A DNA stretch of 64,000 nucleotides, from positions 186,001 through 250,000 of the forward strand of contig NZ_BMYQ01000002.1 in assembly GCF_014652355.1 (NCBI RefSeq). The letters are read 5' to 3'. Of the stretch, positions 1,247 to 63,895 are shown piece by piece. Source of the stretch: Gemmobacter lanyuensis. GTDB taxonomy: Bacteria; Pseudomonadota; Alphaproteobacteria; Rhodobacterales; Rhodobacteraceae. Both the position numbers and the translations under genes were made by a program. The stretch's first letter is position 1, and each line of letters starts with the position of its first letter. The notes beneath the pieces are model-generated. The model did no database searches, was not told the origin of the DNA, and was given only the letters and a program-made list of their open reading frames with translations.

Positions 1247-1528
1247 TCAGCCCAGCAGCTTTGCCAGGCCCATCGCCACGGCTGGATTTCCCGACAGCTT
1301 CAGCTTGCCGGTTGCAAGCGCCATCATCGGGTTCAGCTTGCCCTTCAGCAAGCTTACCAAGTTTTCCGGGCTGAGACGCAGGGTGCAATCGGTTTCGCGA
1401 TCGACGGTGCTTGCAGTGCCTTCGGCCAGCACGATCACGCCTGCCTCACCACAGTCGAACTTCAGGCTTCCGCTGAAGCTGCGGGTTTGCAGGGCTTTGC
1501 GGATATCGGCGGCGATCTCGTCCAGCAT
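1247..1528 (-). CDS. SCP2 sterol-binding domain protein
   Basis: A 93-residue stand-alone SCP2-type domain, a fold that holds lipids or acyl-CoA in a hydrophobic tunnel. The sequence ends with the characteristic stretch in which a small domain protein says LLKGKLNPMMALATGKLKLSGNPAVAMGL, matching the SCP2 signature (GKxxPxxAFMxGKLKIxGD) in spirit. I chose the ATG at 1526-1528, because an upstream in-frame ATG would add 18 residues with no family resemblance, while a GGAGA sequence lies just before the chosen start. The ligand is unknown. It is convergent with the helical protein gene at 932, which may point to a joint lipid-related role, but this is inference. Confidence 0.88.
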   Translation of the reverse strand: MLDEIAADIRKALQTRSFSGSLKFDCGEAGVIVLAEGTASTVDRETDCTLRLSPENLVSLLKGKLNPMMALATGKLKLSGNPAVAMGLAKLLG

Positions 1529-1597: not shown

Positions 1598-1628
1598 AAA
1601 AAGGGCCGCATCCCGGATGCGACCCTTT
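1598..1628 (-). terminator. Rho-independent terminator of argG
   Basis: Stem AAAGGG-C-CGCATC with loop CCG and partner GATGCG-A-CCCTTT, with one C/A mismatch. Read on the minus strand it lies just beyond the argG stop codon and ends in a run of five T, the expected form of an intrinsic terminator. Confidence 0.75.
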
Positions 1629-1632
1629 CGAA

Positions 1633-1648
1633 TGTTTCACGTGAAACA
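1633..1648. other. parS: parS centromere site (ParB-binding palindrome)
   Basis: The sequence TGTTTCACGTGAAACA is a perfect 16-bp palindrome identical to the consensus parS element bound by chromosomal ParB. ParB nucleates here, spreads, and recruits ParA and SMC for origin segregation. It sits in the intergenic space between the argG terminator and the argG stop codon (1654), so it does not interrupt a gene. It is the only copy I noticed in the window. Chromosomal parS sites cluster near the replication origin, which fits the ubiE-mutM group at the other end of the window. Confidence 0.88.
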
Positions 1649-1653
1649 AAGGC

Positions 1654-2883
1654 TTACTTCTTGGCGACCCGCGCATTCCGCGTCGCGATCAGTTTGAGAC
1701 GCAGGGCATTCAGGCGGATGAATCCTGCCGCGTCCTTCTGATCATAGGCGCCGGCGTCTTCCTCAAACGTGACGTGCTTTTCGGAATAGAGCGAATGCTC
1801 CGACCAGCGACCCACGCAATGCACCGAACCCTTGTAGAGCTTCAGGCGCACCGTCCCGGTGACGTTTTCCTGGCTCTTGTCGATCAGCGCCTGCAGCATC
1901 TCGCGCTCGGGCGAGAACCAGAAGCCGTTGTAGATCAGTTCGGCATAGCGCGGCATCAGGCTGTCTTTCAGGTGGCCTGCGCCAGCGTCCAGCGTGATCT
2001 GCTCGATGCCACGATGCGCTTCCAGCAGCACGGTGCCGCCGGGGGTTTCGTAAATCCCGCGCGATTTCATGCCGACAAAGCGGTTTTCCACGAAATCGAG
2101 ACGGCCGATCCCATGCTTGCCGCCCAGTTCGTTCAGGCGGGTCAGGATCGTTGCGGGCGACAGCGCCTCACCATTGATGGCGACGGCATCGCCCTTTTCA
2201 AAGGTGATCTCGATGTATTCCGGGGTATCGGGCGCCTCTTCTGGCGAAACGGTGCGCTGATAGACGTAATCGGGCGCTTCCTCGGCCGGGTTTTCTAGCG
2301 CCTTGCCTTCCGACGAGGTGTGCAGCAGGTTCGCGTCCACGCTGAACGGGGCCTCCCCGCGCTTGTCCTTGGCGATTGGAATCTGGTTCGCCTCGGCGAA
2401 TTCGATCAGCTTGGTGCGCGAGGTCAGATCCCATTCCCGCCAAGGCGCGATCACCTTGATCGAGGGGTCAAGCGCATAAGCGCTCAGCTCGAACCGGACC
2501 TGATCGTTGCCCTTGCCGGTCGCGCCATGGGCCACGGCATCGGCGCCGTGCTGATGCGCGATATCGACCAAATGCTTGGAAATCAGTGGCCGCGCGATCG
2601 AGGTGCCCAGCAGATAGAGCCCTTCATAGACCGCATTGGCGCGGAACATCGGGAAGACGAAGTCGCGCACGAATTCTTCGCGCACATCGACGATATGGAT
2701 GTTCTCGGGCTTGATGCCCAGAAGCTCGGCCTTGGCACGGGCGGGTTCAAGTTCTTCGCCTTGGCCCAGGTCGGCGGTGAAGGTGATGACCTCGCAGCCG
2801 TATTCGGTCTGGAGCCATTTCAGGATGATCGAGGTATCAAGGCCGCCAGAATAGGCGAGCACGACTTTCTTCGGCTTCGACAT
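1654..2883 (-). CDS. argG: Argininosuccinate synthase
   Basis: A 409-residue enzyme that joins citrulline and aspartate using ATP, the penultimate step of arginine synthesis. The N-terminal PP-loop motif AYSGGLDTS is at residues 10-18, and the conserved [13 protein letters not shown] segment follows mid-protein. The start at 2881-2883 gives [14 protein letters not shown], the usual beginning; the reading frame stays open upstream, but that extension is not conserved. The gene stands alone, with a clear terminator after it. Length matches the family (about 400-410). Confidence 0.98.
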
Positions 2884-59832: not shown

Positions 59833-60678
59833 ATGGCCCGCCCGGCCCTAGCTTGCGCGCCCATGACCATCGCGCCCCCGATCCTTCCTGTGGATGCCCC
59901 CCCTCCTTGGCTTGTCCAGGCGGTAGGCGCCACTGTTCCAATCGAAGGGCCCTGGCTGCCGTTGGAAGGGGGGCGCAGCAACCGCGTCTGGCGTGCCGGC
60001 GATCTTGCCGTCAAGCTGTACGACCCGACCAGCGCGACACCGCTTTTCCCCAACGATCCTGCCGCCGAGGCGTTCGCGCTGCAAAGCCTGACCTCGCTCC
60101 CCCTCGCGCCCAGTTTCGTGTCGTCAGGCGCGGGGTGGCTGGCCTACCGATATCAGCCCGGTGCGAGCTGGCGGCAGGATCCGGCGGCGGTGGCACGGCT
60201 TTTGGGCGAATTGCACGGGCTTGGTCCGCTGCCGGGACTGCGCAGCCTGCCTGTCGGACCGCAGCAGATTGGTCAGCAGGCGCGCAGTTTTGCGATCGCA
60301 GGCCTGCCGCCCATGCCGAAACTGTCCGACCCTGGTCCGGTTCGCCCCACCATCGTTCACGGGGATGCGGTGCCGGGAAACATCGTTGTGACCCCGCAGG
60401 GGCTACGGCTGATCGATTGGCAGTGCCCCGGAAACGGCGATCCCGTCGACGATCTGGCTCTGTTTTTGTCCCCAGCGATGCAGCTTCTCTATCGCGGGGC
60501 ACCGCTCAGCCTGGCCGAGCGCGAGGCATTTCTGGCTGCCTATCCCTGCCGCGCGACGGTTGCACGGTATGTTTTGCTGGCGCCTTTGCTGCATTGGCGT
60601 ATTGCGGCCCATTGTGCCTTTCGCGCGGCGCGGGGCGATGCCGGCTATGGCGCGGCGATCCAGCTGGAACTGGGTTAG
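59833..60678 (+). CDS. Phosphotransferase of the APH family
   Basis: A 281-residue kinase-like protein with the Brenner motif IVHGDAVPGNIVV and metal-binding IDWQCPGNGDP. These place it in the aminoglycoside phosphotransferase/choline-kinase superfamily; the substrate is unknown and there is no evidence it confers resistance. The start at 59833 has GAGGG before it; an in-frame ATG at 59863 is an alternative. Its stop overlaps the convergent ubiB stop by four bases. Confidence 0.87.
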   Translation: MARPALACAPMTIAPPILPVDAPPPWLVQAVGATVPIEGPWLPLEGGRSNRVWRAGDLAVKLYDPTSATPLFPNDPAAEAFALQSLTSLPLAPSFVSSGAGWLAYRYQPGASWRQDPAAVARLLGELHGLGPLPGLRSLPVGPQQIGQQARSFAIAGLPPMPKLSDPGPVRPTIVHGDAVPGNIVVTPQGLRLIDWQCPGNGDPVDDLALFLSPAMQLLYRGAPLSLAEREAFLAAYPCRATVARYVLLAPLLHWRIAAHCAFRAARGDAGYGAAIQLELG

Positions 60679-62198
60679 AGCAAGGCCCCAAGCCCGACCC
60701 CAAGTGCCACAAGCGCACCACCGACGAGCATCCAGACAGCCGGATGGGCCTGGCGCTGCGCGGGCTGCGGCAGTTCACTTTGGCGGATCAGCTGCGCTTC
60801 GACCAGCGCGGGCAGCTTCGGCCCGAACCGGCCCAGCACGCGGGCGGTTTGCACCAGATCCCGCAGCAAGGCGCGCGGTCCCACATTGGTCTTGATGTAA
60901 TCTTCGACCACCGGGCGGGCGACCTGCCAGATATTGATATGCGGGTCGAGGCTGCGGGCAACGCCTTCGACCACCACCATGGTGCGCTGCAGAAGGATCA
61001 GCTCGGTCCGGGTTTCCATCCCAAATCTCTCTGTCACTTCAAAGAGATAGGCGAGAAGTCGGGCCATCGAGATGCGGCTTGCATCCATGCCGAAGATCGG
61101 TTCTCCCACCACGCGCAGCGCGCGGGCGAATTCGTCGATGTCGCGGTCGGCGGGCACATAACCGGCCTCGAAATGCACCTCGGCCACGCGGCGGTAATCC
61201 TTGCGGATGAAGCCGAACAGGATTTCGGCATAGACGCGGCGGGTGTAATCATCCAGCCGCCCCATGATGCCAAAGTCATAGGCGATGATGGCACCATCCG
61301 GCCCGACCTTCAGGTTGCCGTGATGCATGTCGGCATGGAAAAAGCCGTCGCGCAGCGCGTGCCGCAGGAACAGCTGCAGCACCCGCGCGCCCAGCGCCAC
61401 GCGGTCATGCCCGGCGGCATCGATGGCGGCGGTGTCGGCCAGTGCAATCCCCTCGGCCCAGCCCAGCGTCATCACCTGTCGGCCCGAAAGGCCCCAATTG
61501 GGCTTGGGCACACGGAAACCTTCATCACCTTCGGTATTGGCGGCGAATTCGGCGGCGGCCGCGGCTTCAAGCCGCAGGTCCAGCTCTCCCATCACCACGC
61601 CTTCGAAATGCCGGATCACATCCATCGGCCGCAGGCGGCGCGACGCGGGCGAGAGTGTTTCGATCACGCGGGCGGCGAAATAGAAGGCGTCGATATCCTT
61701 GCGGAAGGCGCGCTCAATGCCGGGGCGCAGCACCTTGACGGCGACATCCTCGCCCGTTTCGGCCAGCCGCGCGCGATGCACCTGCGCGATCGAGGCGGCG
61801 GCCACAGGCTCGGAAAACTCGGAAAACACCTGGTCCACCGGCAGCGCCAGTTCGGCTTCGATGGTCTGTTTCGCGATTCCGACCGGGAAGGGGGGCAGTT
61901 TGTCCTGCAGGTATTTCAGCTGCTCGGCCATGTCTTCGCCCACGATATCGGGGCGCGTCGAAAGGATCTGGCCGAATTTGATATAGGCCGGGCCAAGTGC
62001 GGTCAGCGCACGGGTCGCAGGCGGCAGGGCCGGATCCCCCTTGAGGCCCAACCATTTGAACGGCCAGCCCAGCACCCGCGCGGCGGCGCGGATGCGCGGC
62101 GGCGCCTGCATCGCCTCAAGCACCACGCCGATGGCGCCGGTACGCTCCATCGTGGCAAGGGTGCGGACGAGGCGGATGATATTGTGGGGGCCACGCAT
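60675..62198 (-). CDS. ubiB: Ubiquinone biosynthesis kinase-like protein UbiB
   Basis: A 507-residue ABC1/ADCK-family atypical kinase required for ubiquinone synthesis. The family-specific KxGQ motif is in AYIKFGQILSTRPDIV, followed by ALPVDQVFSEFSEPVAAASIAQVHRA and HADMHHGNLKVGPDGAIIAYDFGIMG. A C-terminal membrane segment (WMLVGGALVALGVGLGALL) anchors it. It follows ubiE by one base. Confidence 0.97.
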   Translation of the reverse strand: MRGPHNIIRLVRTLATMERTGAIGVVLEAMQAPPRIRAAARVLGWPFKWLGLKGDPALPPATRALTALGPAYIKFGQILSTRPDIVGEDMAEQLKYLQDKLPPFPVGIAKQTIEAELALPVDQVFSEFSEPVAAASIAQVHRARLAETGEDVAVKVLRPGIERAFRKDIDAFYFAARVIETLSPASRRLRPMDVIRHFEGVVMGELDLRLEAAAAAEFAANTEGDEGFRVPKPNWGLSGRQVMTLGWAEGIALADTAAIDAAGHDRVALGARVLQLFLRHALRDGFFHADMHHGNLKVGPDGAIIAYDFGIMGRLDDYTRRVYAEILFGFIRKDYRRVAEVHFEAGYVPADRDIDEFARALRVVGEPIFGMDASRISMARLLAYLFEVTERFGMETRTELILLQRTMVVVEGVARSLDPHINIWQVARPVVEDYIKTNVGPRALLRDLVQTARVLGRFGPKLPALVEAQLIRQSELPQPAQRQAHPAVWMLVGGALVALGVGLGALL

Positions 62199-62199
62199 C

Positions 62200-62949
62200 T
62201 CAGATCTTCCAGCCGGAATGCAGTGCCGCGATACCGAGCGAGAGGTTGCGGTATTTCACCTGCCCGAAGCCCGCCTTGCGGATCATGCCGGCAAAGGTAT
62301 CCTGATCCGGGAATTTACGAATGCTTTCAACAAGATACTGATAGCTGTCACGATCATTGGCGATGATCTGCCCCATGACCGGGATCACATTGAAACTGTA
62401 GAGGTCATAGAGCTTTTGCATCATTTCGTTCGGCAACTGGCTGAATTCCAGCACCATGAGGCGCCCGCCGGGACGCAGCACGCGGTAGGCCTCATTCAGG
62501 GCGTCCTGCACCCGGGTCACGTTCCGGATGCCGAAGCTGATGGTATAAACGTCAAAGCTGTTGGCGGCGAAGGGCAGGGCCATGGCGTCGCCCACCACCC
62601 AATCAAGACTTTCGGCCATGCGGTCGGCCTCGGCCCGCTGGCGCCCCTCGATCAGCATGGATTCGGTCATGTCGCAGACCGTGGCATGGGCGCCCGGCGC
62701 GCGCTTCAGATAGCGGAACGACACATCCCCCGTGCCGCCCGCCACATCGAGCAGCCGGGTGCCGGGGCGCGGGGCCAGCCAGTCCATCATCGCATCCTTC
62801 CAGACGCGGTGGATGCCCATGCTCATGACATCGTTCATGATGTCGTACTTGCTGGCGACGCGGGTAAAGACGCCATGCACCATTCCGGCCTTTTCGGCCT
62901 CGTTCACGGTCTGAAAGCCGAAATGCGTCGTTTGCTGGTCGTCGGTCAT
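62200..62949 (-). CDS. ubiE: Ubiquinone/menaquinone C-methyltransferase UbiE
   Basis: A 249-residue methyltransferase. Motifs: [46 protein letters not shown] at the start, [13 protein letters not shown] for SAM and [18 protein letters not shown]. It methylates the quinone ring. I chose the ATG at 62947-62949. It is divergent from mutM across 94 bases. Confidence 0.98.
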
Positions 62950-63043
62950 GGGATACTCGCCGGGGCTTGCCTTGTGGGCCTCGGCACTCCTTATAGGGCG
63001 ATGTGCGCGCGCTGCAATGCGCGGAACTGTCCGAAGGTGTGCG

Positions 63044-63895
63044 ATGCCCGAACTGCCAGAGGTGGAAACCGTCCGACGCGGCCTGTTGCCGGTGATGGAG
63101 GGGCGCGTGATTTTGCAGGCGCAGGTGAACCGCCCGGATCTGCGCTGGCCGCTGCCGCCGGGCATGGCCGAGCGGCTGACCGGCGCGCGGGTCGAGACGC
63201 TGCGGCGGCGGTCGAAATACATCCTCGCCGATCTCTCCACCGGCGAGACGCTGCTCGTGCATCTGGGCATGTCTGGGCGGATGCTGATTTCCGGCGCCAT
63301 GCTGGGCGATTTCCACCATGACCATCCGGCGCCCGCGAAACATGATCATGTCGTGCTGGATATGGAGGGGGGCGCCCGTGTCACCTTCAACGATGCGCGG
63401 CGGTTTGGCGCGATGGACCTGCTGCCCACGGCCACGGCGGCGGCGCATCCGCTTTTGGCCGTCATCGGGCCAGAGCCTTTGGGGAATGATTTCCACGAAG
63501 ATTACCTTGCCGGACGTCTGGCGGGGCGGAACACGCCGATCAAGGCCGCGCTGCTGGATCAGCATCTGGTGGCGGGTCTGGGCAATATCTACGTCTGTGA
63601 GGTGCTGTTCCGGGCGGGTATCCACCCTGCCCGCAAGGCGCGCGATGTGACCGGGTCCGAGGTCGCGCGGCTTGTCCCCCTGATCCGCGAGGTGCTGGCC
63701 GAGGCGATCGAGGCCGGGGGATCATCCTTGCGCGACTATCGGCAGGCCGATGGCGAGCTGGGCTATTTCCAGCACACCTTCCGCGTCTATGACCGCGAGG
63801 GGGCTGCCTGCCATCGTGCCGATTGTGCAGGCAGCATTGCCCGGATCGTGCAATCAGGGCGGTCGAGCTATTTCTGTCCGCAGTGTCAGCGGTAA
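63044..63895 (+). CDS. mutM: Formamidopyrimidine-DNA glycosylase
   Basis: A 283-residue bifunctional glycosylase/AP lyase removing oxidised purines. It begins [14 protein letters not shown], so the catalytic proline is exposed after methionine removal, and ends with the zinc finger ([27 protein letters not shown]). The ATG at 63044 is fixed by that catalytic proline; the open frame upstream is spurious. Confidence 0.98.

Follow-up and report, generated by a model that had tools for sequence, protein, structure and literature searches.

A parS-type palindrome after argG as a predicted far-side outlier of an origin-proximal ParB-binding array in Gemmobacter

The argG locus of Gemmobacter lanyuensis (genome G000) raises the question of why a sequence resembling a chromosomal centromere should lie directly after argG, and whether it belongs to the segregation machinery of the chromosome. 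The window, i.e., the whole 64-kb stretch that was analysed (G000:C2:186001–250000, within a 4.03-Mb assembly of 51 contigs), contains TGTTTCACGTGAAACA, a perfect self-complementary palindrome of 16 bp (G000:C2:187633–187648; Table 1) that agrees at 16 of 16 positions with what we take to be the ParB-binding parS consensus. The first-pass annotation had reported such a perfect match and placed it past the argG stop codon, ahead of the terminator; both the match and its setting were confirmed. Along the minus strand, the argG TAA (1654–1656) is followed after 5 bp by the palindrome, then by a strong terminator hairpin on its other side and by a gene of the SCP-2 family. Since it lies upstream of the terminator, the palindrome is inside the predicted argG transcript. 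It was the sole match in the window at up to 3 mismatches, a threshold at which shuffled windows yielded a mean of 0.09 matches (9 of 100 shuffles contained one). A tRNA scan of C2:120001–190000 and the window found none, and an Rfam search of C2:140001–190000 returned one match, unrelated to the argG palindrome. This match, to RF02514 (5' ureB sRNA; G000:C2:183538–183825, i.e., L017 3538–3825, minus strand, 82.9 bits), sits 2.2 kb to the left of the window, near a ureG-like gene at the window start, and may simply reflect ureB coding sequence.

Table 1 Features of the argG locus (window positions) and copies of the 16-mer in G000 (positions on contig C2).
Feature	Position	Strand	Evidence or location
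parS-type palindrome TGTTTCACGTGAAACA	1633..1648	none	16/16; one of 7 genome copies
argG (argininosuccinate synthase, 409 aa)	1654..2883	-	PF20979 E 1.9e-81, PF00764 E 6.6e-65
argG terminator hairpin, 14-bp stem in predicted fold	1599..1629	-	RNA fold of 1583–1656, z-score -4.6
SCP-2 sterol-transfer family gene after argG	1247..1528	-	PF02036 E 1.6e-15
parS copy	C2:131940		in addA
parS copy	C2:140877		between mutS and grpE ends
parS copy	C2:143962		rdgB end / hemW start
parS copy	C2:147486		in rsmG
parS copy	C2:149379		mnmG start
parS copy	C2:154606		in coaE
parS copy	C2:187633		after argG

A search of the whole G000 genome at up to 2 mismatches revealed seven perfect copies of the 16-mer and none with 1–2 mismatches, while the backwards sequence used as a control gave no match; the chance expectation, given the G+C content of the part of C2 examined, was about 0.00016 perfect copies per genome. 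All seven copies are on one contig within 56 kb (C2:131940–187648). Six of them flank parA-parB and a cluster of DnaA boxes, 33–56 kb to the left of the argG site, as anticipated by the suggestion that the palindrome belongs to a set of origin-region centromeres and lies apart from the par genes. All of these six except the coaE site, which is 1.6 kb to the right of the likely oriC, lie to its left, on the same side as parAB. The argG site is the outermost of the seven, separated by 33,027 bp from its nearest neighbour (coaE) and by 38 kb from the copy at the mnmG start, and is alone on the side of the likely oriC away from parAB. Genes of the array, as well as hemJ, maf, rho and parA, were named by eye from ORF sequences, whereas argG and its window neighbours were named by Pfam, and dnaA and parB by searches. 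The copies inside genes encode fixed peptides (MFHVKH at the mnmG and hemW starts; VSRET within rsmG, addA and coaE); thus centromere sequence constrains protein sequence at these positions.

The position of the array was then related to candidate origin markers. The hemJ–maf interval (C2:152591–152984), which is presumably where the Caulobacter origin would point, contains six 9-mers within 2 mismatches of a DnaA box, and the 400-bp segment beginning at 152601 was the richest in the 310 kb of C2 examined (6 boxes; the next elsewhere had 5, at ~178 kb). The matching interval was box-rich in all eight relatives compared (5–9 such 9-mers), where at most 2 of the 198–298 segments sampled per stretch reached the count of the origin interval, and TTTCCACAG was conserved within it across all nine genomes (G000 and the eight relatives). 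In the relatives, the boundary on the maf side is only approximate, and in three of them the interval extends into maf. This cluster, which precedes the argG site by 34,649 bp on C2, is likely to be oriC, judging from its box content. The cumulative GC-skew minimum, also left of the argG site, falls at ~164 kb on C2, 11 kb off the cluster. An AT-rich stretch at ~164.4 kb, near the skew minimum, is a possible, less favoured alternative origin; it has fewer DnaA boxes than the hemJ–maf interval, and we gave the box cluster more weight than the skew minimum. The dnaA gene itself (C2:251724) is 64 kb beyond argG and 1.7 kb past the window end, and was rejected as an origin marker, being ~99 kb from the box cluster with the skew minimum elsewhere. 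The ubiB-like (ABC1 domain), ubiE and mutM genes, which had been proposed as a dnaA-proximal block, are indeed present at 60675–63895 of the window (Pfam-confirmed) and do lie next to dnaA, but as evidence of origin proximity they carry little weight because of that distance. On the whole-genome map, all seven sites are near the likely origin and dnaA is away from it; the opposite outcome, a site far from the origin with the motif scattered at random over the genome, was not what we found.

A ParB that probably reads these sites is encoded among them, in a gene at C2:145480 adjoining parA. Its best PDB match was 6t1f (E 1.5e-77), which we take to be Caulobacter ParB. Among the residues described for ParB, R173 and G201 read parS and Q162, K171, S172, N178 and R204 make further contacts (PMC7383237); all seven were identical in the alignment of G000 ParB with 6t1f, with residue numbers assigned from the motif, and position 170 is Ser in G000 and Gly in Caulobacter. 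Judged by these residues, the chromosomal ParB of G000 is of the parS-reading type. Another contig encodes SMC (810 bits) and a protein that matches the MipZ family strongly (417 bits). Further ParB-family genes are present on other contigs, which contained no 16-mer at up to 2 mismatches.

Comparison within the genus revealed unequal retention among the sites. At up to 2 mismatches, the 16-mer was found in 10 of 11 Gemmobacter genomes, the fragmented assembly G009 having none. Sites were compared together with their flanks in eight relatives of G000 (G004 and G009 were left out). The hemW and rsmG sites were perfect in 8/8, in surrounding alignments only 63–73% identical; the rsmG site of G002 fell outside its flank alignment, and its perfect copy was identified from the listed match positions. 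The mnmG site was perfect in five relatives and had one mismatch in three. The remaining sites were more variable: coaE had one mismatch in four and was absent in four; the mutS–grpE site was perfect in two, had one mismatch in two and was not found in four; and addA had one mismatch in four, two in two and three in one, and was not found in G005. Only G000, among the nine genomes, had all six non-argG sites perfect. In these alignments, the hemW and rsmG sites are clearly retained against diverged flanks, and the mnmG site largely so.

The argG site is patchily distributed. The argG gene is present in 10 of 11 Gemmobacter genomes (G008, 82% complete, is without it), and only two of these ten have the site, which was absent in the other eight: it is perfect in G000, and the G007 copy (TGTTTCACATGAAACA) differs at a single central position and likewise begins 5 bp past the stop codon. 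Outside the 16-mer, the argG–SCP2 intervals of these two genomes could be aligned only with many gaps. SCP2 adjoins argG in six of the nine other argG-bearing Gemmobacter genomes, including five without the site (G010, G006, G005, G004 and G009), and was not found within the 1.5 kb read after argG in G001, G002 and G003.

In the wider family (198 genomes, one per genus), 180 contained a perfect 16-mer. G000 had the highest number of perfect copies (7), followed by G224 (5) and G088 (4), with at most three in the rest; seven copies are no record for the class, since G041 has nine and G046 has seven. Among the matches listed, most pairs of 16-mers were ~1.9 kb apart, which fits rsmG–mnmG. Two lone perfect copies were observed off the core pair, at L192 10629 (G218:C1:610629) and L191 10303 (G024:C12:46303). 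The former is ~1.2 Mb from its core pair if the 4.01-Mb contig is a closed chromosome, and the latter is on a different contig from its core pair. There were 21 other genomes with at least three copies; sites were placed in 16 of them, of which 14 had their first site inspected, and the positions in the other five came from the family-wide search.

A second genus, represented by G155, has a perfect 16-mer 15 nt past the argG stop codon, the same place as in G000, and the order there is argG, 16-mer, an inverted repeat rich in G+C (recognised by eye) and the SCP2 gene. The parAB region of G155 grouped with other genera (support 1.0), and its argG protein was 87% identical to that of G000, compared with 90–99% for the Gemmobacter species. 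Its argG site is at a distance of 17.4 kb from the mnmG copy, on the parAB side of the hemJ–aroE interval, whereas those of G000 and G007 lie opposite parAB. In Gemmobacter, 17.4–17.8 kb separate the addA parS from mnmG, on the side where G155 has its argG site and in different genes; this matching spacing of ~17.4 kb is either coincidence or a spacing preference.

In the other genomes read, argG was not accompanied by the motif. The gene was found in 193 of the 198 family genomes, and the argG 3' side was read in 131 of these, two of which, G000 and G155, had a perfect site. The other 129, consisting of 29 whole loci and 100 stretches of 250 nt ordered by argG similarity, had no site at up to 3 mismatches (G189 offered only 508 nt on this side); the nearest matches, in G111 and G131, had 4 mismatches. 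A further 80 argG loci from genome contigs lacked any site at up to 5 mismatches within 250 nt downstream of argG, or within the 42 and 119 nt available in L088 and L118, respectively, although 16-mers at up to 2 mismatches were present 5–9 kb from argG in four of them (L051, L067, L069 and L086).

The recurrence of an argG–parS link across two genera seems more than coincidental, with three genomes behind it, one of which (G155) came to notice through its three copies of the 16-mer. It is also the only mildly surprising part of the finding, the site being otherwise of a known type. In the open-access literature, we found no report linking parS sites to argG, nor parS to Gemmobacter. Recent transfer of argG between G155 and Gemmobacter is not favoured, given the protein identities above, and neither is recent exchange between G000 and G007, whose argG DNA is 86.8% identical, within the range of the other Gemmobacter genomes to G000 (82.1–88.4%). 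In trees, G000 and G007 fell in different subclades, with weakly supported basal branches (0.38 and 0.63). The deeper history could be inheritance from a shared ancestor followed by many losses, separate gains at one spot, or exchange of the short interval. A more specific scenario, which we regard as rather improbable, is that an old, portable distal parS stayed with argG through rearrangement of the origin region, such that the side differs and a second ParB/SMC zone has been swapped between arms.

What, then, does the palindrome do? It is highly likely, on the strength of the motif and its genomic context, to be a genuine chromosomal parS, a predicted ParB nucleation site in an origin-proximal array of seven. 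Very probably it is an origin-region parS like the others and unusual only as a lone outlier on the far side. Three other explanations were weighed. That ParB bound here regulates argG or its downstream neighbour, as a 3' roadblock or by promoter silencing, and that the site is retained for this reason, we consider very unlikely: ParB at parS does lower transcription of adjacent genes in Pseudomonas aeruginosa, as described in PMC5521831, and argG is paired with parS in two genera, but the site is at the argG 3' end rather than at a promoter, most relatives are without it, and seven sites in or beside unrelated genes make the usual picture of a centromere array. We give scant credence to the idea that the repeat is an RNA element whose resemblance to parS is incidental, namely a hairpin in the 3' UTR of the argG transcript (stem UGUUUC/GAAACA) that protects the 3' end or aids termination ahead of the terminator. 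The repeat is within the predicted transcript, and in G007 the substitution falls in the would-be loop and the small hairpin appears in the predicted fold; yet this hairpin is missing from the predicted fold of G000, the palindrome continues through its centre where a hairpin would not need it, and the sequence is identical at 16/16 positions to the six copies around parAB, several of which lie within coding frames. Absence of the repeat from the other eight Gemmobacter genomes and recurrence of the exact 16-mer in G155 also argue against an RNA element. Least credible is a palindrome that arose by chance or is a relic no longer in use, because, despite patchy conservation and a central mismatch already present in G007, seven perfect copies without near-matches, all near the likely origin, far exceed the chance expectation, and a relic should have decayed whereas the G000 argG copy is perfect.

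If the argG palindrome is a parS, the mechanism in Caulobacter and Bacillus suggests that ParB would bind the 16-mer as a dimer, form a closed CTP clamp and then slide away along the DNA. This would create a second ParB zone ~33 kb from the coaE site, across the likely oriC from parAB, which ParA would pick up together with the main cluster and which could load SMC. In segregation, the site would probably be redundant and dispensable; its absence after argG in most relatives indicates that those seen can mostly do without it. Rhodobacter sphaeroides is a related alphaproteobacterium. Like G000, it combines chromosomal ParAB–parS with MipZ, the system there being described as ParB1–parS/OriC1 (PMC6315104). 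G000 also resembles Caulobacter crescentus in having ParB of the same type and several sites close to the origin; in that species, at least five sites are clustered ~8 kb from ori, ParB covers ~10 kb on the left arm, and the chromosome tolerates a second parS cluster placed up to ~500 kb around ori (PMC5815017). The position of the argG site should therefore be harmless. Unlike C. crescentus, G000 has one natural site alone across the likely oriC. With Bacillus subtilis it shares multiple sites, some of them distant from the main cluster, but the eight sites there extend over ~0.75 Mb, in contrast to seven within 56 kb in G000; distal parS sites in B. subtilis load Smc and can often give rise to Smc collisions (PMC8357415). 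Head-on transcription is reported to hamper SMC leaving parS (PMC5583512). Because transcription of argG is directed toward the likely oriC, with the site at the 3' end of the gene, SMC that leaves the site away from the origin would, by deduction, run head-on into it.

The argG site offers a natural way to ask what distance from the main cluster, and which side of the origin, a parS can occupy, and genomes with the argG site (G000 and G007) and without it (G010 and G006) would allow a natural comparison without engineering. In the genus as a whole, gain and loss within a parS array can be seen, with a conserved core and outer sites that vary between species.
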